DNA of 64,000 bases, from contig NZ_BAAAHE010000030.1 of the NCBI RefSeq assembly GCF_039525035.1, positions 29,696 to 93,695 on the forward strand, given 5' to 3'. A model generated the notes under the pieces. That model did no database searches. It had not been told where the DNA came from and worked only from the letters and a program-made list of their open reading frames with translations. A program made the position numbers and the translations under genes. Positions 42,719 through 53,820 of the stretch are shown here, one piece after another. How positions within the stretch are numbered: position 1 is the first letter of the stretch; each line of letters begins with the position of its first letter. This DNA is from Sporichthya brevicatena. Lineage in GTDB: Bacteria > Actinomycetota > Actinomycetes > Sporichthyales > Sporichthyaceae.

Positions 42719-44422
42719 TCAGGCGGCTGGCTCGTCGGGTGCGGGGCGGGGTTGTGGTCGTTCCCCGGGTGCTCTGGCTCGGCCGGGTCGGTCGGGTTCG
42801 ATCAGGGGTGGGATCTCGACGTCGTAGACAGCGCCGAGGCGGGTGATCCAGCGGACCTTGTGGTCGGACAGGCGGATGAGTTGCCAGCCGCCTTTCGATT
42901 TAAGGTCGTGGTCGTGCTCGCACAGGGGTCCGAGGTTTCCGGCGAGGGCCAGACCGCCGCGGGCGTGGTCGAGGGTGTGGTCGATCTCGGAGCGGGCAGC
43001 GGGGAGGCGGCAGCCGGGGCCTTGGCAGGTCGTCATCCGGAGTTGGGTGTCCCGGCGTAGTCCTGAGCGGGGGAAGCGGCGCCGGGCGTCCTTGGCCCCG
43101 GTCTCCTCGTCCTCGGTGTGCGCGGGTGCGGCGGCGTGGTCGGCGATGTCCTCCAGTACCGGCCACCAGGGCTTGAGTGTGGGGCTGGTGAGCGTGCCGT
43201 CCAGGAGCGCGGCGAGCAGGTCGGCGGGGATGAGGAGGTCGACGATGCCGTGGTCGTCCGCCCGGCGCCGCTCCCAGCGGATCGGCCGTGCGGTGACCAG
43301 TCCGGAGGAGATCGCGTAGCCGTCGGGGCCGGTGACCGCGAAGCGCCACTGCCCGGCGGACAACTGCTTCGCGAGGTCGCGGGCGTACTCGGCGTGGATC
43401 GGCCCCTGTCCGGCGAGTTCGGCGGGGTCGCGGTCGATCCCGAGCAGGGTGGAGACCTTCGCGGTCAGCTGCACCCCGCGGTGCGGGGACCGCGCCACCG
43501 CCACCGGCTGGGGCGCCGCCTCCGGCTCGGGCTGCGGTGCGGGCGCCGGCTCCGGCTCGGGCTCCGGCACGTCGGTCTCACCCATCTCCGCGTCGGCGGG
43601 GCGGGTGGTGGCGAGGTGGGCGAGGATCTGGCCGTCGGTGAGGTCGGCGTAGGTGCCGTCGAGCAGGTTGAGCGCGATCTCCGAGCGCAGGTGATCCACC
43701 GGCCGCGGATCCCCGGACCGTTTGGCGTCATCAGCGAGTTTGCGGACCCGGGCGATGGCGGCGGCGACGCGGGCGGGGTCCTGGTTCTGCGCGGCGAGGG
43801 TGGCGGTGCCGTCCTCGTTGCGCCAGGAGATCACCCGCCGTTCGCGGTGGGCCTCGGCGAACCGTCGTTGGGCCCAGTCCGGGTCGAGTTGGATGCCGAG
43901 TTTGCGGCACCGGGCCCCGATCTGCTCACTGGTCCACGGCCGCTCCGAGTCAAGGGAGCAGTGGTCGAGGACTTCGTCGATGACGGTGTGGGCGTGCTCG
44001 TCGCTCATGTCCCGGGTCCAGAAGTGGATCACCTTCGCGCGTTCGATGCTCAGGTCCCCGGCGGCCATGGCGGCGTGCAGTTTCGGGAAGCGGTGGACGA
44101 CGGCCCCGGCGAAGTCGAGCAGTTCGTTGCCGGAGTAGGCGGAGATCCGCAGCGCGGTGCGGACCTCGTCGGCGCCCCAGCGGTCCGGGGCGGGCAGGCG
44201 CACGATCTCGTCCTCGGAGTCCAGGGCGCGGGTCCCGACCTCGGCCACCAGGCCCAGCCAGACCGCGTGGGCGGCGTTGAGTTGCCGCTGTGCGGCGCGC
44301 AGCAACGCGACTGACTCGGCCCCGGTCATCGACGCGCGCTCGGCCTCGCTGGGCGCGATGCCCAACGAGATGCCCCACGCGCCCGGCGTGGGAACCGCTG
44401 CTGCTGTCGATGTCCCCGTCAT
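42719..44422 (-). CDS. DUF222 (13E12 family) protein with C-terminal HNH nuclease domain
   Basis: Protein of 567 residues of the actinobacterial 13E12/DUF222 family. It has a helical N-terminal DUF222 region (about 25-270), a Pro/Glu-rich linker near 290-315 (PEPEPEPAPAPQPEPEAAPQP) and a C-terminal HNH motif: CQGPGCRLPAARSEIDHTLDHARGG followed by NLGPLCEHDHDLKSKGGW. This nuclease family is multicopy in many actinobacteria and behaves like a mobile repetitive gene, though its biology is unclear. GTG and ATG starts are adjacent (44425/44422) and TAGGTT ends about eight bases upstream, suggesting leaderless expression. Its upstream region carries two copies of the palindromic repeat seen at 27 kb. 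Confidence 0.88.
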   Translation of the reverse strand: MTGTSTAAAVPTPGAWGISLGIAPSEAERASMTGAESVALLRAAQRQLNAAHAVWLGLVAEVGTRALDSEDEIVRLPAPDRWGADEVRTALRISAYSGNELLDFAGAVVHRFPKLHAAMAAGDLSIERAKVIHFWTRDMSDEHAHTVIDEVLDHCSLDSERPWTSEQIGARCRKLGIQLDPDWAQRRFAEAHRERRVISWRNEDGTATLAAQNQDPARVAAAIARVRKLADDAKRSGDPRPVDHLRSEIALNLLDGTYADLTDGQILAHLATTRPADAEMGETDVPEPEPEPAPAPQPEPEAAPQPVAVARSPHRGVQLTAKVSTLLGIDRDPAELAGQGPIHAEYARDLAKQLSAGQWRFAVTGPDGYAISSGLVTARPIRWERRRADDHGIVDLLIPADLLAALLDGTLTSPTLKPWWPVLEDIADHAAAPAHTEDEETGAKDARRRFPRSGLRRDTQLRMTTCQGPGCRLPAARSEIDHTLDHARGGLALAGNLGPLCEHDHDLKSKGGWQLIRLSDHKVRWITRLGAVYDVEIPPLIEPDRPGRARAPGERPQPRPAPDEPAA

Positions 44423-44538
44423 CACTGATCAACCTAGACGGCACCACCGACAGTCTGTTCTCGTCGACGCCTGGGTCCGCCGCGGCCCTGGAACCCCGGC
44501 AGGACAACGCCTCTGACGCATCATCAGCACCGCCGGCC

Positions 44539-44677: not shown

Positions 44678-45211
44678 TCAGAGGACGCGGCCGGCGCGCC
44701 AGGCGGAGGTCCAGATCTTCTCGAGCTTCACCTTCTGGCCGGGGCGGGGGGCGTGCCAGATCTGCTTGTCCCCGGCGTAGATGCCGACGTGGTAGACGCG
44801 GCCGCCGCGGTGGAAGAACACGAGGTCGCCGCGGCGGATCTTGTTCTTCGCGACCTTGTGGGCGCGGGCGAACTGCTGCCCGGAGGTGCGGGGGAGCTTC
44901 TCGCCGGCCTTGGCGTAGACGAAGCGGGTGTAGCCGGAGCAGTCGAAGCCGCGGCGGGTCGTGCCGCCGTAGACGTACGGCGTGCCCTTCAGCGCCTTCG
45001 CCGTGTGCAGGACGCGGTCGACCTTCTGCAGGCGCAGCGTCTTGCCGACCGGGCCGGCCGCGGCGGCGCTGCTGCCGAGGGCGCCGGCGCCGAGCACGAC
45101 GACGGCGGCGAGGGTGACGAGGGTGACGAGGGAGAGTGCGGTGGCCACGATCCGGCGGACGTGGGTTCGGAGGCGGATGCGGGCGTGCGTCATCGCGGGC
45201 GGAAGAGTCAT
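44678..45211 (-). CDS. Secreted NlpC/P60 peptidoglycan endopeptidase
   Basis: Exported cysteine peptidase of 177 residues. A basic, hydrophobic N-terminus (about 8-55, with Ala-rich cleavage region) is followed by an NlpC/P60 domain with catalytic Cys in GFDCSGYTRFVY, His in VYHVGIYAGDK and a third polar residue in IWHAPRPGQ. It cleaves peptide stems of peptidoglycan outside the membrane. The leader carries a c-di-AMP riboswitch, as is usual for actinobacterial wall hydrolases of this kind. A very strong hairpin follows the stop, so it is probably monocistronic. Confidence 0.92.
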   Translation of the reverse strand: MTLPPAMTHARIRLRTHVRRIVATALSLVTLVTLAAVVVLGAGALGSSAAAAGPVGKTLRLQKVDRVLHTAKALKGTPYVYGGTTRRGFDCSGYTRFVYAKAGEKLPRTSGQQFARAHKVAKNKIRRGDLVFFHRGGRVYHVGIYAGDKQIWHAPRPGQKVKLEKIWTSAWRAGRVL

Positions 45212-45539: not shown

Positions 45540-46475
45540 TCACGCCAGCACGAGGTACGTGAGCAGGAAGCACAGGGCCGCGAGCAGGACGCAACCGGCG
45601 ACGACCACGGCGCCGGGGAGCTCCCGAGCCGGGGCGGTGGGCTCGGGGCCGTCCGCCCCCTCCGGGACGAATCGGGACAACCCGCGGGCGAACTCGGTCG
45701 CGCTCGCGGGGCGCGCCGCGGGGTCCCAACTCAGGGCCCGCGCGAGCAGGGAGTCGAGCGCGGCGGGGCGACCCACCTGCGCGGCGACGGGCACCGGGCG
45801 GGAGTCGGGGGCACGGTGCACCACCGACGCCGCGGTGCGGTGCGAGAACGGCGGCTCGCCGGCCAGCAGGTGGTAGGTCACGGCCGCGACGGCGTAGACG
45901 TCGGCGCGGGCGTCGAAACCGGCGCTCTGGTTGATCTGCTCCGGCGCCATGTACGACGGCGTCCCGGTCGTGACGGTGATGCCCGAAGCCTCGGCGAGCA
46001 GCTTCGCGCTGCCGAGGTCGGAGACGATCAGCCGCGGCGGCGTGACCCGGTCGTCGAGGAGCAGGTTGCTGGGCTTGAGGTCGCGGTGGACGACGCCGGC
46101 GTCGTGCAGCACCTGCACCGCCTCGGCCGTCGCGACGCCGAAAATCAGGGCGTCCGCCGGGCTCAGCGTCCCGATGCGGTCCGCGAGCGTCCCGCCGGGG
46201 ACGTACTCCATGACGAAGTACGGCCGCGCCTCCGCCTCGCTCACCCCGACGTCGAAGACGCGCACCACGCGCGGGTCGTCGATGCGCCGCAGCATCCGCG
46301 CCTCGGCGAGGAACCGCTCGACGACGTCGGCGTTGTTCACCCAGTTGTCCGCGAGCACCTTCACGGCGACGGGCACCTCGAGCGCCGGGTCGTCGCCGAG
46401 CCACACCGTCGCGAAGGCGCCCGACCCGATGACACGCACGAGTCGGTACCGACCGACTCGCTTGATCGACTGCAT
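45540..46475 (-). CDS. Membrane-anchored Ser/Thr protein kinase (PknB-like)
   Basis: Eukaryotic-type kinase of 311 residues: glycine loop IGSGAFATVWLG, lysine in VAVKVLADN, catalytic HRDLKPSNLLL, DLG in place of DFG, and the activation-segment ending TPSYMAPEQ. A single C-terminal helix (about 288-308) leaves only two or three residues outside, so it lacks the PASTA or other sensor domain usual in PknB. The sensor may be a separate protein, and a secreted protein is encoded 1.6 kb away. Its start codon is only 19 bases from that of a divergent sigma factor, so their control regions overlap. Confidence 0.9.
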   Translation of the reverse strand: MQSIKRVGRYRLVRVIGSGAFATVWLGDDPALEVPVAVKVLADNWVNNADVVERFLAEARMLRRIDDPRVVRVFDVGVSEAEARPYFVMEYVPGGTLADRIGTLSPADALIFGVATAEAVQVLHDAGVVHRDLKPSNLLLDDRVTPPRLIVSDLGSAKLLAEASGITVTTGTPSYMAPEQINQSAGFDARADVYAVAAVTYHLLAGEPPFSHRTAASVVHRAPDSRPVPVAAQVGRPAALDSLLARALSWDPAARPASATEFARGLSRFVPEGADGPEPTAPARELPGAVVVAGCVLLAALCFLLTYLVLA

Positions 46476-46494
46476 TGAGACACCATGACAGCCC

Positions 46495-47043
46495 GTGGAT
46501 TCCGACGACGGTACGACGACGCTCGAAGACGCCCTCGTGGCGCGCGCCCGCGCCGGGGACGCGGCCGCGCTGGAGGAGCTGCTCCGCGAGCTCCGCCCGT
46601 TCGTCGTGCGCCGGTGCTCGCGGTTCCTGCCGCACACCCACGACGCCGAGGAGGCCGCGCAGGACGCGCTGGTCGCGATCGCGCAGAATCTCGGCAGCTA
46701 CCGCGGTGTCGGCACGTTCCGCGGCTGGGTCACCGTCATCGCCTCGAACAGTGCACGCATGACGTACCGCCGGCTGCGGCGGCAGGCGATCGAGAACGGC
46801 GCGATCGAGCTGCCCGAGACGGCGGACCCCCGCACGACGAGCGTCATCGCGGGGACGCGGATCGACCTGATGGAGGCGCTCGCCCGCCTGGAGGAGGCGA
46901 AACCGCAGGTCGTCGAGCCGTTCGTGCTGCGCGACCTCGGCTCGCTCCCGTACGAGGAGATCGCCGCGATCACGGGGACGCCGCTCTCGACCGTTCGGGA
47001 GCGCATCTCCGTGGCTCGCACGTTCCTGCGCGCACGACTGTGA
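46495..47043 (+). CDS. ECF-type RNA polymerase sigma factor
   Basis: Sigma-70 family protein of 182 residues. Region 2 is visible as HDAEEAAQDALVAIAQNLGSYRGVGTFRGWVTVIASN and region 4 as LGSLPYEEIAAITGTPLSTVRERISVARTFLRARL. No separate anti-sigma gene follows, which is typical of ECF groups controlled by Ser/Thr kinases. The divergent kinase with a 19-base gap makes phosphorylation control plausible. GTG is the only in-frame start available after an upstream stop. Downstream lies a secreted protein, perhaps its target or sensor. Confidence 0.85.
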   Translation: MDSDDGTTTLEDALVARARAGDAAALEELLRELRPFVVRRCSRFLPHTHDAEEAAQDALVAIAQNLGSYRGVGTFRGWVTVIASNSARMTYRRLRRQAIENGAIELPETADPRTTSVIAGTRIDLMEALARLEEAKPQVVEPFVLRDLGSLPYEEIAAITGTPLSTVRERISVARTFLRARL

Positions 47044-47143
47044 TCCAGCTCACACAACGTGTCGCCGACGAAACCGCGGCCCCGCGCATCAAGCGGGGTG
47101 GGACGGCAGACCGCGCCGCCCGTCGACGACAGGGGAGGACACC

Positions 47144-47827
47144 ATGAAGCGCAGCACCGCCACCATCGCCGCCGTCACCGCCGCCGTGCTCGGGATCGGG
47201 GGTGGCGCCACCGCGGCCCTGCTGAGCGGCGACGACAACGCCGAGGTCAGTCAGGTGACGCCCTCGCCCGCCGCGACACCGGCCGGGACCCCCGCGGCGA
47301 ACCCGACGGGCGGGCCGGCGGACGCGCTGTCGGAGGAGAACCTGCTGCGTGAGCGGATGTACTTCGACGTCACCGGGCACTCGTTCGACCGCACGTCGCT
47401 CGGCCAGAACGCGCGGCTCGGTCCGTGCACCGGCGACAGCACCTTCGCCGACGTCCTGCCGGTCCAGGGCGTCACGCGGATCGGGACCCGCCTCACCGGC
47501 AGCGACAACCGACAGGTCACCCACCAGCTCGCGCAGACCCTGAACGCGCAGGAGGCGCGGGTCGCCGCGAACGAGATCGTGTCGCTCGTCGACGAGTGCG
47601 CGGCGATCCAGGGCGGCGACTTCGGTTACGGCGACCCGGTGACGGTGATCGACGAGGCGGACCGCAAGGTCGTGTACTTCCCGGCGTTCGACAGCGACCG
47701 CGTGTACGGCGGCTACATCGTGCTGCAGGTCGGCCCGCGCGTCGGCGTCGTCGACGTCTCCGACACGGTGCCGGCGGACCAGGTCGAGCACCTCGCGAAG
47801 GAAGCCGCGGGTATCGCGGACGACTGA
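47144..47827 (+). CDS. Secreted protein, possible sensor-type extracellular domain
   Basis: Exported protein of 227 residues with signal sequence (about 1-25), a Thr/Pro/Ala-rich stalk (residues 35-60) and a globular domain containing two cysteines (ARLGPCTGD and VDECAAIQGG) and a conserved-looking YGDPVTVIDEADRKVVYFP. The layout recalls PknH/sensor-like extracellular domains of actinobacteria, but I cannot confirm this. GGGGAGGA ribosome site upstream. It follows the sigma factor by 100 bases; together with the divergent kinase it may form a signalling set in which this is the exported partner. Confidence 0.6.
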   Translation: MKRSTATIAAVTAAVLGIGGGATAALLSGDDNAEVSQVTPSPAATPAGTPAANPTGGPADALSEENLLRERMYFDVTGHSFDRTSLGQNARLGPCTGDSTFADVLPVQGVTRIGTRLTGSDNRQVTHQLAQTLNAQEARVAANEIVSLVDECAAIQGGDFGYGDPVTVIDEADRKVVYFPAFDSDRVYGGYIVLQVGPRVGVVDVSDTVPADQVEHLAKEAAGIADD

Positions 47828-47851: not shown

Positions 47852-48829
47852 TCAGAAGTACCGCACCCGCGCCTCGGGGTGCTCCGCGAGCCACTGCTTC
47901 GCCGGGGGAGTGGTCCGCGAGGAGTACCCGACGCGGAGCACGGCGTCCCCGGCACGGGTCCGGTAGTACACCTGCCAGGCGTGGAAGGACGCGTACGCGC
48001 GCTCGTCGGCGCGGAGCACGGCCGCGTACTGCAGGACGCCGGTGACGTAGTGCTCGGAGTTGTTGTACCGGCGGACGGCGCGCCGCAGGCCGGCGCTGGT
48101 GCCGTCCGCCCCGCCGTTCGCGGCGAGGTAGCGGGCGGCGGCGAGAATCGAGTCGTGCGCGTCGTCGATGTCGCCGCGCCCGTACGCGCGCCAGGTGGCG
48201 GGCATGAACTGCATCGGCCCGCGCGCCCCGGCGGTGGAGTATCCGACGATGCGGCCCATCCGGGTCTCGACGAGGTTGATCGCGGCGAGGACCTCCCACG
48301 GCACCCCGAAGCGCCGCTCGCCCGCCGCGTAGTAGCGGCGCAGGTTCGCCGCCGGCTCCGGCTCGACGATCCGCCAGGCCGGCATCGTGGTCGCCGGCTT
48401 GCTCACGAGCTTCGCCAGGGCCTCCCCGGCCCGCAGTTGGTGCCGGGCGAGCTTGCGGTAGGGCGCCGGCAGCGCGGCGAGCACCGTGCGCTGCCACTCC
48501 GGTCGGCTGTGCAGGGCGCGGTACGCGTGCTGGGCGGCCCAGCCCGCGGCGGCGACCCGGGCGGGGCTCTCGGCGCGGTCGCGCACGACGTCCTCGGCGA
48601 CGGTCAGGTACTGGGCGAGCTGCTGCGGATCGGGCGGCAGCAGCGGCTGCTCGCCGGCCAGCGGCCGGGTGAGCACCGCGTCCCGTTCGGGGGAGACCGC
48701 CGCGGCGTTCGCCGCCGCGGGCCCAGGTTCGCCGGCCGAGGACCCCGTCAGGTCCCCGCACCCGGCGACCGCGAGGGCGACGGCGAGCGGGGCCGCCAGG
48801 GCACGAACGGCGGTGCGGGTGGATCTCAT
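47852..48829 (-). CDS. Lipoprotein lytic transglycosylase (SLT domain)
   Basis: Lipoprotein of 325 residues with a lipobox (LAVAGC) near residue 24, so anchored outside the membrane. The catalytic SLT domain shows VPWEVLAAINLVETRMGRIVGYSTAGARGPMQFMPATWRAYG, with the acid glutamate in NLVET and the family block PMQFMPATW, plus YNNSEHYVTGVLQYA. It cleaves glycan strands of peptidoglycan. It converges with the secreted protein gene at 47827 with 24 bases between. It joins other wall-remodelling genes nearby (NlpC/P60, DUF4015, CAP protein). Confidence 0.9.
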   Translation of the reverse strand: MRSTRTAVRALAAPLAVALAVAGCGDLTGSSAGEPGPAAANAAAVSPERDAVLTRPLAGEQPLLPPDPQQLAQYLTVAEDVVRDRAESPARVAAAGWAAQHAYRALHSRPEWQRTVLAALPAPYRKLARHQLRAGEALAKLVSKPATTMPAWRIVEPEPAANLRRYYAAGERRFGVPWEVLAAINLVETRMGRIVGYSTAGARGPMQFMPATWRAYGRGDIDDAHDSILAAARYLAANGGADGTSAGLRRAVRRYNNSEHYVTGVLQYAAVLRADERAYASFHAWQVYYRTRAGDAVLRVGYSSRTTPPAKQWLAEHPEARVRYF

Positions 48830-48914: not shown

Positions 48915-50357
48915 TTACGGCGTGGCCGTCGCCGACGGCTCCGGCGAGGACTCGCTGTCCGACGACGAGGAGGTCGGCTCCGGCGTCGCGGCCGGCTCGT
49001 CGAGCGGGTTCTTGAAGGTGCCCTGACGCCCGCCCTCGAGCCAGGCCAGGTAGGCCTCGAAGACCTTGCGGGCCTTCTCGATGTCCGTGCTGCCCTCGGA
49101 CTTGTTGCCCGGCTTGTTGATCGAGTAGAGGATCTGGCCCGGCTTGTTGTCCTCGGCCTTGCCCGGCTGCAGGGCCGGGGCCCCGATGCCGACCTTCGAC
49201 GAGTCGTTCCACAGGTACCAGCTGTTGATGCCGGTGTCCTTGACCGCCTTGATCTGCGCGGCCACGTCCGCGGCGGTGTAGGTCTTCGGCCAGCTGAAGT
49301 TCTGCAGCCACGGGACGACCTGGCACTTCGTGCCGATCATCATCCGGTTGAAGTCCATCATCGACTGCTTGACGATGTCGTACGGCTGGTCGACCGGGGA
49401 GGCGACCGAGTACTCGCCCTTGTTCCAGTGCGACGGGTAGATCATCGGCGAGACGAAGTCGAGAACCTTGGCCATCGCCGGGATGTCCTGGGCGACCGAG
49501 GACGGCGCGAACGACGAGATGCCGTAGACCGCGGCGCCGGCGGCAGCGCCCGCCGCGCGGATGCGCGGGGCCGCCTTGGCGAGGAAGGCGGTGATGCCCT
49601 CGGCCGGGGTCTTGTCCCCGATGCCCGGGTAGACCTGGCCGCTGTTCTCGGGCTTGCGGACGTAGTCGTACATGATCGCGTCGAAGCCGGCCTTGGCCGC
49701 CTCCTCGGCGAGCTGGATGTTGTACTCCATGACGTCGTTGTTCGCGAAGTTCGTGAACGCCCCGACGCCGTAGTTGCCGGCCGGGTAGGGCTTGCCGGCG
49801 CTGTCCTGGATGAGCATGTCCATCTTGCCCGCGTTCAGCGCCCACTTGCCCAACCGCGGGTCGCGGAAGGCCACGATGCGCCCGGTGATGGTCGCGCCGA
49901 GGTCGTGGATCTCCTTGACGGTCGCGGCGAGGTCGAACCGCGCCGTGCCGTTGGGCTTGTAGACCGTCTTGGCCTCGACGGCCAACGGGACCTGCGAGTC
50001 GTAGCCGACGATCCCGTCCTCGTCCTTGATGTCGAGCTGGACGTTGTCGAGCTTGCCGGCCTTGATCAGCGCGACGACCGGGTCCTTGGTCGCCGCGTCG
50101 CCCCACGCCCACGAGGTGAGGTGGACGGAGCGGACGTTGACCGCGCCGACGCCGTAGCCGGCCTCGGGGCCGGAGGCGTCCGGGTTGGTCGTGGGCGCGG
50201 GCTCCTCGCTGGGTGCCGCGCTCTCGGTGGCTGCCGGGGCGGGCTCCGCCACGGGGTCGTCGTCATCGTTGCTGCACGCGGCCAGCGTGGTCAGCAGGGC
50301 CATAGCCCCAGCGGCGGCCAAGGCGCGCCGGAGGTTCGGCCGTCGTGCACCGGTCAT
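48915..50357 (-). CDS. Secreted putative glycoside hydrolase (DUF4015 family)
   Basis: Lipoprotein of 480 residues. The lipobox LAAC precedes an acidic low-complexity spacer (residues 28-65). The catalytic domain follows: VRSVHLTSWAWGDA, VALIKAGKLDNVQLDIKDEDGIVGYDSQVPLA, GFDAIMYDYVRKPE and FVSPMIYPSHW, which fit the DUF4015 TIM-barrel group of putative glycoside hydrolases. The C-terminus is Ser/Thr/Pro-rich. Substrate unknown, perhaps wall or exopolysaccharide. It is on the same strand and directly upstream of the lytic transglycosylase gene. Confidence 0.8.
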   Translation of the reverse strand: MTGARRPNLRRALAAAGAMALLTTLAACSNDDDDPVAEPAPAATESAAPSEEPAPTTNPDASGPEAGYGVGAVNVRSVHLTSWAWGDAATKDPVVALIKAGKLDNVQLDIKDEDGIVGYDSQVPLAVEAKTVYKPNGTARFDLAATVKEIHDLGATITGRIVAFRDPRLGKWALNAGKMDMLIQDSAGKPYPAGNYGVGAFTNFANNDVMEYNIQLAEEAAKAGFDAIMYDYVRKPENSGQVYPGIGDKTPAEGITAFLAKAAPRIRAAGAAAGAAVYGISSFAPSSVAQDIPAMAKVLDFVSPMIYPSHWNKGEYSVASPVDQPYDIVKQSMMDFNRMMIGTKCQVVPWLQNFSWPKTYTAADVAAQIKAVKDTGINSWYLWNDSSKVGIGAPALQPGKAEDNKPGQILYSINKPGNKSEGSTDIEKARKVFEAYLAWLEGGRQGTFKNPLDEPAATPEPTSSSSDSESSPEPSATATP

Positions 50358-50539: not shown

Positions 50540-50553
50540 CCGACTGCAGTCGG
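50540..50553. promoter_or_regulatory. Perfect 14-bp palindrome upstream of REC-EAL gene
   Basis: CCGACTGCAGTCGG is a perfect dyad within the 267-base region between two divergent genes (DUF4015 hydrolase and REC-EAL protein), about 70 bases before the latter's start. It could be an operator or a small hairpin. No second copy was noticed. Confidence 0.35.
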
Positions 50554-50624
50554 TGAGGGAGGCGGGGAGGCAGTTCTCGCGCCGTGGCGGTCGGGCGCAC
50601 GCACCGGGGGGCGGGGATCTCGAC

Positions 50625-51848
50625 ATGTTGGAGCGGTTCGCCGATGCGGACGTCCTGGTCGTCGACGACAACCGGGCGAATGTCGCGCTGCTGACGGCGA
50701 TCCTCGAGCGCGCCGGTCTGCGGAACGTGCGCGCGTACACCGACCCGCGCGAGGCCGTCGCCGGACTGGCCCAGCGTCCTGATCTCGCGCTGGTCGACCT
50801 GCACATGCCCCACCTCGACGGCTACGCCGTCCTGGAGCGGATCGTCGAACGCGCCGCCGGCTCCTACCTGCCCGCGCTGGTGCTGACCGCGGACGTCAGC
50901 ACCGAGGCGATGCGGCGCGCGCTGGCCACCGGCGCCCACGACTTCGTGACCAAGCCCTTCGACGCGACGGAGGTCGTGCTCCGGGTCCGCAACCTGTTGC
51001 AGACGAACGCCCTGCACAAGGAACTGCGGTTGCACAACCGGTGGTTGCGCTCGAAGGTCGACGAGCAGCGTGCGTACGCCGAGGCCGAACGCGGCGAGCG
51101 GTCGCAGCAGGAGGCACGGATCCGCCGCGTCCTCGACGAGCGGGCTCTGACCGTCCTCTACCAACCCGTCGCGGACGTGCGCACCGGCCGGGTCGTCGGG
51201 GTCGAGGCCCTCGCCCGGTTCCCCGGTGAGTTCGCGCGCACTCCCGACGTCTGGTTCGCCGAGGCGGACCGGGTGGGGCTGGGCGTGGAACTGCAGATGC
51301 TGGCGATCGAGGAGGCCCTGGCGGCGCTGAACGCGCTTCCCGCCGACGTCCTCCTCGGGGTCAACCTGACGCCGTCGGTCCTGCTCGACCGCGCCCATCG
51401 CCTCGCGACCGTGACGGAGCCGGTGCTCGAGCGGCTGGTTCTCGAACTCACCGAGCAGGTGCCGGTCGAGGACTACGACGCGCTGAACGCCGCGGCCGAA
51501 CCGCTGCGCAAGGGCGGCGCGCGGCTCGCCGTCGACGACACCGGCGCCGGGTACGCCGGGCTGCAGCACCTGGTCGCGCTCTCGCCCGACATCGTCAAGC
51601 TCGACCTGTCGCTCACCCGCGGCGTAGACCGGGATCCGACGCGCCGGGCCCTGGCCAGCGCGCTGGTCCGGTTCGGGACGGACACCGGTTCCGGGGTCCT
51701 GGCGGAAGGGGTCGAGACCGCCGCCGAGCTGGAGTCGCTGCGGGAGCTGGCCGTGCCGTGGGCGCAGGGGTACCTGATCGCCCGTCCGCTGCCGCTGGAC
51801 GAGGTGCTGCGGTTCTGTCGCGGGGACGACGGTCGGCCGCCGGAGTGA
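50625..51848 (+). CDS. Response regulator with EAL (c-di-GMP phosphodiesterase) domain
   Basis: Protein of 407 residues: an N-terminal receiver domain (DVLVVDDNRANVALL, phosphoacceptor Asp in LALVDLHMPHLDGY, conserved Lys in FVTKPFD), a coiled linker, then an EAL domain (EALARF, GVNLTP, LELTE, VDDTGAGYAG, IVKLDLSL, EGVET, QGYLIARPL). The catalytic residues needed for c-di-GMP hydrolysis appear present. Its stop is seven bases before the start of the hybrid histidine kinase, the likely phosphate donor. The pair thus links a sensor to c-di-GMP levels. Confidence 0.92.
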   Translation: MLERFADADVLVVDDNRANVALLTAILERAGLRNVRAYTDPREAVAGLAQRPDLALVDLHMPHLDGYAVLERIVERAAGSYLPALVLTADVSTEAMRRALATGAHDFVTKPFDATEVVLRVRNLLQTNALHKELRLHNRWLRSKVDEQRAYAEAERGERSQQEARIRRVLDERALTVLYQPVADVRTGRVVGVEALARFPGEFARTPDVWFAEADRVGLGVELQMLAIEEALAALNALPADVLLGVNLTPSVLLDRAHRLATVTEPVLERLVLELTEQVPVEDYDALNAAAEPLRKGGARLAVDDTGAGYAGLQHLVALSPDIVKLDLSLTRGVDRDPTRRALASALVRFGTDTGSGVLAEGVETAAELESLRELAVPWAQGYLIARPLPLDEVLRFCRGDDGRPPE

Positions 51849-51855
51849 AACCGAG

Positions 51856-53820
51856 ATGACGGACCGTCAGCGGGGCGTCTTCGGTCGGTGGTGGTCGGAC
51901 CGCTCCCTCCGCACGAAGGGCGTGCTCGTCCTCGCCCTGCCGCTGTTCGCGTTCGTGGTCGCCGCCGTCGTGTTCCTCTCGGTCCTCGCGCAGACCGACC
52001 GTTCGCAGGAGCGGGTGGAGGACACCCGGCAGGCGCAGGACAAGCTCGCCCAGGCCTACCGCCTGGTCATCGACGGCGAGACCGGCATCCGGGGGTATCT
52101 CGCCACCGGCGACCGGCAGTACCTGGCTCCGACGACCGCGGCGCGGGGACGTCTGCCCCAGGTGCTCGACGAGCTGACGGCGCTCGTCGGCGACTCGCCG
52201 GACCAGGCCGCGCGCCTGGCCCGCGTGCGCACCCTGCTCGACGACGGCTACCAGCTGCGCGAGCCCCCGCGGGGGAACGCCGACTCGCGGTTCGTCCGCA
52301 CCTGGGTCGACCGCCAGAAGGCCTCGACCGACGAGCTGCGCGAGCTGCTCTCCGACGTCTGGCGCACCGAGGACCGGTTGCTCGCGGAGCGGCGGCTGCG
52401 GTCCGAGGACCGGTGGATCGACCGCGGGACGGTGATCACCGTCGTCGCGCTCGGCCTCGGGATCGCCGGCGGCGTCGCGGCGATGCTGGCCTTCACGGTG
52501 GGAGTGACGCGCCGTCTGGAACGGGTCGTCGCCCGGACCGACGGCCTGCGCGAGGGGGAGGTCCCCGACTTCGTGGATCCGGGCCGCGACGAGATCGGTG
52601 TCGTCTCCCGCCGGCTGACGGACGTCGCGTCCCGCTGGCAGCTGTGGAAGTCCGAGGCACAGACGGCCCGGGTCGCCGCGGAGGAGGCCAACCGGGCGAA
52701 GAGCGAGTTCCTCTCGCGGATGAGCCACGAGCTCCGCACGCCCCTCAACGCCGTGCTCGGGTTCGCGCAACTGCTGGAGATGGACCTGCCCGAGGGGGAG
52801 AAGGAGAGCGCCCGTCAGATCCGGCGGGCCGGGGTCCACCTGCTCGACCTGATCAACGAGGTGCTCGACATCTCGAGGATCGAGGCGGGGCAGCTCACGC
52901 TGTCGCTGGAGCCGGTTCGCGTCTCGGCCGTCGTCGGCGAGGTGGTCGAGCTGATGGCCCCGCTGGCCGCCGACCGCGGCGTCGCGCTCGACGTCTCCGA
53001 CGTGGTCGGCAGCCCGGGGCACGTACTGGCCGACCGGCAGCGCACCAAGCAGGTCGTGCTGAACCTCGTCTCGAACGCGGTCAAGTACAACCGGCCGGGC
53101 GGCTTCGTCGTGGTGCGGTGCCGGGTCGGGGACGCCACGACCGCGATCGAGGTGACCGACAGCGGCGTCGGCATCGCCGCGGAGGACCTCGACCGCCTGT
53201 TCACCCCGTTCGAGCGGCTGGGTGCGACGAACAGCGAGATCGAGGGGACCGGGGTCGGGCTCGCGCTCTCGCAACGCCTCGCGTCCGCGATGGACGGGCG
53301 CATCGAGGTCGAGTCCCGACTGGGCGCGGGCAGCACGTTCCGGTTGGTGCTCCCCGCGGCCGCGGCGCCGGGAACGGCGGCGGACCGGCCGACGGGAGAG
53401 ATCCGGCTGCCGGCCGCGCGGGCGAGCGCGGAGTCGACCCTCGTCGTCCTCGCCGTCGAGGACAACCCGGCGAACGTCCGCCTCCTGCAGGAGATCGTGA
53501 GTCGGCGGCCGGACTGGCGGCTCGTGACGGCCGGGCAGGGACAGGTCGGCATCGACCTCGCGATCGCCGACCCGCCCCACCTGATCCTGCTCGACCTCCA
53601 CCTGCCCGACCTGCGCGGCGAGGACGTGCTGACGCGACTGCGGGCCGAGCCGCGGACGGCCGCGGTGCCGGTCGTCGTGGTCAGCGCCGACGCGACCCCG
53701 GGCCGCGCGGAGCGGGTCCTTGCCCTGGGAGCCGTGGACTACTTCACCAAGCCGATCCAGGTCGGCCGCCTGCTCTCGCTCCTCGACGACGTCCGGCTGG
53801 CCCGGATCCCCGGGTCCTGA
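51856..53820 (+). CDS. Hybrid sensor histidine kinase with CHASE3-like domain
   Basis: Membrane kinase of 654 residues. Helix 1 (about 23-45) and helix 2 (about 195-215) enclose a helical CHASE3-like domain (LVIDGETGIRGYLATGDRQYLAP). HAMP-like linker, HisKA with the phosphorylated His in FLSRMSHELRTPLNAVLGFAQLLE, HATPase (NLVSNAVKYNRPGG, DSGVGIAAEDL, GTGVGLALSQRLA) and a C-terminal receiver (LVVLAVEDNPANVRLL, LLDLHLPDLRGED, YFTKPI) follow. It is co-transcribed with the REC-EAL gene, a likely two-component system acting on c-di-GMP. The extracellular signal is unknown. Confidence 0.93.
   Translation: MTDRQRGVFGRWWSDRSLRTKGVLVLALPLFAFVVAAVVFLSVLAQTDRSQERVEDTRQAQDKLAQAYRLVIDGETGIRGYLATGDRQYLAPTTAARGRLPQVLDELTALVGDSPDQAARLARVRTLLDDGYQLREPPRGNADSRFVRTWVDRQKASTDELRELLSDVWRTEDRLLAERRLRSEDRWIDRGTVITVVALGLGIAGGVAAMLAFTVGVTRRLERVVARTDGLREGEVPDFVDPGRDEIGVVSRRLTDVASRWQLWKSEAQTARVAAEEANRAKSEFLSRMSHELRTPLNAVLGFAQLLEMDLPEGEKESARQIRRAGVHLLDLINEVLDISRIEAGQLTLSLEPVRVSAVVGEVVELMAPLAADRGVALDVSDVVGSPGHVLADRQRTKQVVLNLVSNAVKYNRPGGFVVVRCRVGDATTAIEVTDSGVGIAAEDLDRLFTPFERLGATNSEIEGTGVGLALSQRLASAMDGRIEVESRLGAGSTFRLVLPAAAAPGTAADRPTGEIRLPAARASAESTLVVLAVEDNPANVRLLQEIVSRRPDWRLVTAGQGQVGIDLAIADPPHLILLDLHLPDLRGEDVLTRLRAEPRTAAVPVVVVSADATPGRAERVLALGAVDYFTKPIQVGRLLSLLDDVRLARIPGS

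Follow-up and report, generated by a model that had tools for sequence, protein, structure and literature searches.

A Ser/Thr kinase gene divergent from an ECF sigma factor gene in Sporichthya brevicatena, with an intact σ2.2 motif and a candidate linker phosphosite

We analyzed a 64,000-nucleotide stretch of Sporichthya brevicatena DNA (contig NZ_BAAAHE010000030.1, positions 29,696–93,695; hereafter the window), in which a gene for a Hanks-type serine/threonine kinase (STK) lies head-to-head with a gene for an extracytoplasmic function (ECF) sigma factor, followed by a gene for an exported protein, P0003 (Table 1). The host genome comprises 5.2 Mb in 89 contigs and has 13 kinase matches above the Pfam cut-off. 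A preliminary description of this DNA had proposed that the three genes form a signaling unit in which a sensor-less kinase acts on the sigma factor. Its account of the layout holds: exactly 19 bases separate the opposed start codons, no anti-sigma domain is detected by Pfam in the trio or in six neighboring genes, and the protein encoded 3′ of the sigma gene has a hydrophobic start, then an Ala/Pro/Thr stalk and then a domain. The sigma factor, consisting of σ2 and σ4 joined by a linker, is an ECF factor (group 4 σ70) by its Pfam domains, its TIGR02937 score (68.7 bits; cut-off, 42.9) and the helices of an AF2 model. Comparison with related loci suggests that the pair may form a kinase-controlled switch acting through the linker of the sigma factor.

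Table 1. Features of the kinase–sigma–exported protein trio (window coordinates)
Feature	Position	Strand	Basis
Hanks-type Ser/Thr kinase, 311 aa	45540–46475	−	Pfam Pkinase E = 9.5e-43, catalytic motif check, transmembrane scan
Kinase start (ATG) and stop	46475 (start), 45540 (stop)	−	Sequence
Gap between divergent start codons, 19 bp	46476–46494		Sequence
ECF sigma factor, 182 aa, GTG start, σ2 + σ4	46495–47043	+	Pfam Sigma70_r2 E = 2.1e-13, Sigma70_r4_2 E = 1.7e-8
σ2.2 acidic motif DAEE, residues 50–53, intact	46642–46653	+	Conservation, 117 factors
Linker motif DPRTTSVIAG, residues 111–120	46825–46854	+	Conservation, 117 factors; AF2 pLDDT
Thr114 codon, second candidate phosphosite	46834–46836	+	
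Thr115 codon, candidate phosphosite	46837–46839	+	
Candidate ECF promoter of exported gene, CGACGAA-N13-GCATC (= RAC-N16-GCATC)	47066–47090	+	Position in trio loci
Exported protein P0003, 227 aa	47144–47827	+	Hydrophobic N terminus with Gly-rich GIGGGA, Ala/Pro/Thr stalk, ~165-aa domain, two invariant Cys

The divergent pairing of kinase and sigma genes is more than chance, recurring at 92 of 117 loci. These loci comprise the window, L041 and L042, 74 other matches from a search of the class, and 40 that we picked among the matches listed for families f16 (20, nearly all from new genera) and f26 (20, mostly high-scoring); about 4.5 kb on each side of the sigma gene was taken, contig permitting (L130 is truncated by a contig end). 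A partner kinase is present at 93/117 loci, divergent from the sigma gene at 92 and convergent at one (L165_G094, scored as kinase-less in the first linker comparisons and as kinase-linked in later counts), while 24 sigma factors have no kinase within the stretch taken. Distances, measured between matched domain starts, are within 100 bp for 50 of the divergent pairs, 101–400 bp for 32 and greater for 10. The sigma family itself is found in 71/393 genomes and 25/137 genera of the class (E ≤ 1e-30), in 256/297 genomes of f16 and in 83/197 genomes of f26 (both E ≤ 1e-40), with close relatives at 78% identity in Actinopolymorpha rutila and at 59% in Streptomyces physcomitrii, two species that point to an actinobacterial setting. 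Within the window's own family (five genomes), sigma factor and exported protein occur only in the window genome and G003. The complete trio, whose conservation the preliminary description had named as a check, recurs in the same order in 21 loci: six with a P0003 orthologue, window included, and 15 with another exported domain, which in one of them (L199) may be a distant P0003 relative.

The kinase is intact but lacks a sensor of its own. All Hanks-type motifs are present in the window kinase (VAVK, HRDLKPSN, DLG, APE), and the catalytic Lys, HRD Asp, Asn and DLG Asp are retained in 93/93 partner kinases. At its C terminus, a 19-residue hydrophobic segment (~residues 290–308; Kyte-Doolittle 2.65) forms the single transmembrane (TM) helix, with 2–3 residues beyond it, in agreement with the earlier remark that the extracellular tail is almost absent. 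With no folded domain after the helix, this protein is not a receptor kinase with its own extracytoplasmic sensor and must rely for sensing on the TM helix, on a partner protein or on a cytoplasmic cue. The label "sensor-less" thus suits the window kinase but not the partner kinases at large, about two thirds of which carry an extracytoplasmic domain of ~150–215 aa beyond the TM helix (46/59 in a first scoring, 59/93 in a larger one); such a domain is absent from the window's branch and from some other branches. In genus g40, four genomes encode the module twice, with a short kinase in one copy and a fused-domain kinase in the other: G125 (L126/L138), G155 (L128/L134), G201 (L116/L137) and G218 (L146/L140).

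The σ2–σ4 linker contains a residue that tracks the kinase. It reads DPRTTSVIAG across the sigma family with few changes, and residues 105–122 are predicted to be disordered (predicted local distance difference test, pLDDT, < 50) in an AF2 model that otherwise has helices at 10–100 and 120–181 and an overall pLDDT of 82.6. The motif is absent from 49 other ECF factors, in an alignment that is loose in the linker. Thr115 is present in 91/93 kinase-linked factors vs. 1/24 kinase-less factors, 23 of which have Val. Position 114 is Thr in 80 kinase-linked factors and Arg in the other 13, which makes Thr115 the better candidate; Ser116 is not diagnostic, being invariant in both classes, as are Ala119 and Gly120 (Val117 nearly so). 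The first 60 kinase-linked factors shared 46 near-invariant columns, of which five (P112, R113, T114, T115 and R179) were lost in at least nine of the 17 factors then scored as kinase-less. Linker phosphosites reported for other ECF factors make such a site plausible. PMC13147305, in its available text, gives T104, T106, S108 and S110 in the linker of Xanthomonas citri EcfK, together with T51 in σ2.2, and states that phosphorylation at T51 or T106 is required and that either one suffices for activation; it also cites phospho-residues T106 and T110 in the linker of Mycobacterium tuberculosis SigH. From the kinase linkage and Thr115, we infer that the window sigma factor is phosphorylated by its neighbor. 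Mimicry of a kinase activation loop by the segment SVIAG[ST] was also considered and dropped, since the segment is conserved without the kinase as well. At five of the kinase-less Val115 loci (L143, L149, L150, L158 and L163), the sigma gene is divergent from an otsA-like trehalose-6-phosphate synthase gene, and genes resembling threonine synthase and MoaD/ThiS come next; these names reflect a reading of the sequence.

Other roles for the kinase and the linker have to be weighed against this. In the known arrangement of EcfP and group ECF43, the σ2.2 DAED motif is missing and phospho-Thr provides the charge (PMC8999054 and PMC8103513, available text), which allows binding of the β′ clamp. The window family shares with ECF43 an STK gene next to the sigma gene (93/117 loci) and the lack of an anti-sigma gene, but its acidic motif is not replaced by a Thr phosphosite: Asp50 and Glu52 are present in 117/117 factors, residue 53 is acidic in 116 (Glu in 99, Asp in 17, Val in one), and the family alignment contains no conserved Ser/Thr in this region. 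Because the DAEE motif is intact, the ECF43 mechanism cannot apply unchanged, and we regard it as highly improbable here; PMC8999054, as far as its available text goes, likewise assigns a DAED-like motif to STK-linked groups other than ECF43, which may work otherwise. A linker switch faces difficulties of its own. On a rapidly built tree, many of whose branches are weak, kinase loss and T115V are essentially one joint event; kinase state needs three changes and residue 115 two, so that the contrast, with two to three independent pairs, has no statistical power. Moreover, three loci depart from the pattern: Val115 accompanies an intact kinase in L190_G796 and L207_G1046, and L142_G205 keeps Thr115 with no orthologous full-length kinase in its genome (E ≤ 1e-40).

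One alternative is a kinase that acts elsewhere, the pair being kept by shared promoters or neighborhood inertia and the linker motif serving as a structural contact with RNA polymerase. Part of the motif has another role, since S116, A119, G120 and largely V117 are kept without the kinase, and overlapping divergent starts can preserve gene order. However, the 92 divergent pairs come from five or more genome families, the distance exceeds 100 bp in 42 pairs, and absence of the kinase goes specifically with a change at T115; we consider this explanation distinctly unlikely. Phosphorylation of Thr115 might alternatively inhibit the sigma factor, with the Val115 factors of the kinase-less clade constitutively active and controlled by transcription. 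Since Val neither carries nor mimics a phosphate and the kinase-less factors have nonetheless persisted, that clade must function with a linker that cannot be phosphorylated; on the other hand, the known linker case, T106 of EcfK, is activating (PMC13147305, available text), and inhibition seems to us somewhat unlikely.

The preferred reading, an activating linker switch, is joined by a candidate promoter that points to the output of the sigma factor. At the six loci with a P0003 orthologue, the gap between the sigma and exported genes contains C[AG]AC[AG]AA-N13-GCATC at fixed spacing, a pattern found without mismatch nowhere else in the 117 loci. Its shorter form, RAC-N16-GCATC, is present between positions −60 and +80 relative to the sigma stop codon in 20/21 trio loci (all but L199), which share ancestry, vs. 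0.2 expected from the background rate and 0/96 non-trio loci. Locally, AAC-N16-GCATC is present in 18/21 trio loci, and each of ten other spacings in 0/21; RAC-N19 counts (eight loci) arise from a GAC directly before the AAC. Since its position shifts between −31 and +50 relative to the sigma stop codon, sometimes falling inside the end of the sigma gene, the element seems to follow the exported gene. The window's genome and G003 each contain a single mismatch-free copy of the extended site, located at the trio in either case. Six f18 loci have AACTTTT[CT]-N11-GCATC just past the kinase gene, upstream of a stalked lipoprotein (the one scanned is a DUF4232 protein). Across 32 genomes, AACYTTTY-N11-GCATC has 22 matches in 21 sigma-bearing genomes (16 with at least one) and one in 11 genomes without a detected sigma factor, and a reversed control pattern has two in all 32. 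Of the 22, 14 fall at the module from which the pattern was derived; as some of the genomes scanned had supplied loci for it, only the eight off-locus matches are independent. Secreted DUF4232 proteins lie downstream of two of the eight, related secreted proteins downstream of another two (NPCBM scored for one) and acyltransferases downstream of two more (one scanned, Acyl_transf_3). In other lineages, related sites stand mostly before exported or envelope genes, a CarboxypepD_reg exported protein among them.

Several counts weigh against this promoter and its reach. Over whole loci, AAC–GCATC matches number 72 at spacing 16, but the frame-preserving spacings 13, 19 and 22 have 47, 71 and 50; spacing 16 is thus not special there, and the promoter evidence is one of local position only. 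An enrichment over spacings 14, 15, 17 and 18 across whole loci was accordingly dropped, frame-compatible spacings being about as common. Off-locus matches are few (8 in 21 sigma-bearing vs. 1 in 11 sigma-free genomes), 5/21 sigma-bearing genomes have no match at all, and 2/8 off-locus sites (L237 and L250) are not clearly before an exported gene. The exported gene could also simply be co-transcribed with the sigma gene. A wider regulon in the window genome finds no support: the strict pattern has three hits there (G000) vs. seven in G004, a genome without a detected sigma factor, and with two mismatches allowed, the window's genome and G003 share no site that is clearly non-coding, as judged from the letters. 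Neither does autoregulation, as no AAC-N14 to N18-GCATC occurs on the sigma strand in the stretch, 540–850 bp long, that precedes the sigma stop codon (other site forms were not sought). The output of the sigma factor is likely an exported or envelope protein, and in the window genome essentially one gene.

The exported proteins at this place are diverse. P0003, with two Cys (95 and 152) in its ~165-aa domain, matches no Pfam or NCBIfam family above cut-off (the NCBIfam scan covered five proteins), has no Pfam match to PknH_C (PF14032), and has no sequence relative in the PDB by profile search. Orthologues occur at six examined loci (the window, L041, L092, L093, L197 and L198), with L199 as a possible distant one, and at 14 other short-kinase loci its place is taken by a different exported domain; a search of 396 genomes of the phylum matched three, namely the window's own and two covering only signal or stalk positions. 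An AF2 model built from two sequences (pLDDT 51) retrieved PsbP and DcrB with Foldseek and PknH (4esq) at rank 43 (TMq 0.40), a prediction too weak for the fold to be named. A small exported stalk protein follows the sigma gene at 21/33 short-kinase loci vs. 1/59 fused-domain loci, counts that are corrected by inspection (L126 rejected as antisense of a convergent gene, L205 accepted by sequence, the trio set staying at 21) and for which 32 is the better short-kinase total, as L102, with a tail of 162 aa, was wrongly included. Nine fused-domain loci were flagged for an exported neighbor, one of them small (L165) and eight (L134, L135, L137, L140, L141, L144, L147 and L164) ~490–510-aa lipoproteins. 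The genes of these eight begin at or near the sigma stop codon, and their HExxHxWYG motif presumably resembles that of M1 aminopeptidase.

The concentration of stalk proteins beside short kinases raises the alternative that P0003 is a detached sensor, uncoupled from the kinase in the sensor-less branch. Anchored in the membrane by its Gly-rich N terminus, it would act as a sensor or co-receptor touching the TM helix of the kinase, and its control by the sigma factor would create a feedback loop. Most of the unrelated exported domains found at this position have a Gly-rich hydrophobic N terminus in common, the exported protein beside the short kinase of L042 matches Pfam PknH_C (E = 4.9e-5, below the curated cut-off), and P0003 has, in its AF2 model, a secondary structure that would be compatible with a PknH-like or PsbP-like fold. 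Conversely, no homology emerged when profiles of the exported domains (types A and B, and that of L042) were compared with 46 domains fused to kinases, the P0003 model is poor and places PknH far down its list, and nine short-kinase loci (L116, L126, L128, L146 and L212–L216) have no such neighbor. At the six f18 loci, moreover, the promoter-driven exported lipoprotein adjoins a kinase with its own fused domain, which leads us to rank "target gene" above "sensor or co-receptor" and to judge a detached sensor unlikely. Its most far-reaching version is, in our view, quite improbable: a two-piece receptor in which a sensor-stripped kinase and a membrane-anchored exported stalk protein, encoded by the one strong target of the sigma factor, would operate a switch at a single Thr of the otherwise disordered linker that threads through RNA polymerase, with the clamp motif intact, forming a self-feeding loop with exchangeable sensors that recurs across actinobacteria. 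The exported protein looks primarily like a target gene of the sigma factor rather than an established signaling component. Conservation and the promoter-like site before the exported gene give good support to the unit of the preliminary description, with this protein as its probable output.

Together, our results make it moderately probable that the locus encodes a kinase-controlled ECF sigma switch that works by linker phosphorylation and has a very small regulon including the exported stalk protein. The membrane-tethered kinase would phosphorylate the σ2–σ4 linker, most likely at Thr115 and possibly at Thr114, and thereby alter how the sigma factor engages RNA polymerase, more probably activating than inhibiting it. 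The active factor would then transcribe the adjacent exported gene from the RAC-N16-GCATC element.

Envelope genes flank the trio. Pfam identifies an NlpC/P60 protein (44678–45211), an SLT transglycosylase (47852–48829) and a DUF4015 glycosyl-hydrolase-like lipoprotein (48915–50357); the SLT gene is also found in G003 but is absent beside the Actinopolymorpha trio. Farther out are a response regulator–EAL protein (50553–51848), followed by a CHASE3–histidine kinase–receiver hybrid (51856–53820), and a DUF222 protein (42719–44425) that has a weak HNH match below cut-off and that we take to be of the 13E12-repeat type.

ECF factors linked to STKs are already known. A literature search on ECF factors and kinases gave no study of this module in the titles or abstract openings among the matches listed, and a search on DUF4232 and sigma factors found none. 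In the available parts of the literature, phosphorylation-controlled ECF factors are described mainly for ECF43, with a mechanism that rests on the missing acidic motif, and the available text of PMC8999054 leaves open how STK-linked groups with an intact motif are controlled. What our comparisons would add is an intact clamp motif together with a candidate linker phosphosite, a candidate promoter and an exported target. Because the module, present in many actinobacterial genomes, offers a candidate phosphosite, kinase-less relatives with Thr replaced by Val, a candidate promoter and a target gene, the control of such factors becomes directly testable.

Related systems share some of these features. 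PknH of M. tuberculosis is also a kinase with a C-terminal TM helix, and the M. tuberculosis PknB and SigH genes are not known to be a dedicated divergent pair. PknH has an extracellular PknH_C domain fused to the kinase, whereas the window kinase has none and locus L042 encodes a separate PknH_C-like exported protein. SigH resembles the window factor in its linker phospho-residues (T106 and T110) but has an anti-sigma factor, RshA, that is itself a PknB target (PMC13147305, available text), whereas the window trio has no adjacent anti-sigma gene. The window family may correspond to the catalogued group ECF283, to which we liken it by description only: ECF283, represented by Nocardioides sp. 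Root190 (WP_056749340.1), is the sole phosphorylation-regulated group with an actinobacterial example in the table of PMC8999054, and its STK association and actinobacterial representative are consistent with, but not sufficient for, membership. A full-text literature search for ECF283 gave no study beyond that paper, which in its available text names neither a mechanism nor a phosphosite, promoter or target for the group. EcfK/PknS of X. citri and EcfP/PknT of Vibrio parahaemolyticus, both of group ECF43, are likewise systems with an ECF gene near a gene for a Hanks-type kinase that phosphorylates the factor. The window family differs from ECF43, whose members lack the full acidic σ2.2 motif, in its intact DAEE, its actinobacterial relatives, its divergent gene pair and its linker motif; exported proteins are predicted as its output, in place of a type VI system or polymyxin resistance. 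In EcfK, one of the two sufficient phosphosites (T106) lies in the σ2–σ4 linker (PMC13147305, available text), as we predict for the window factor.

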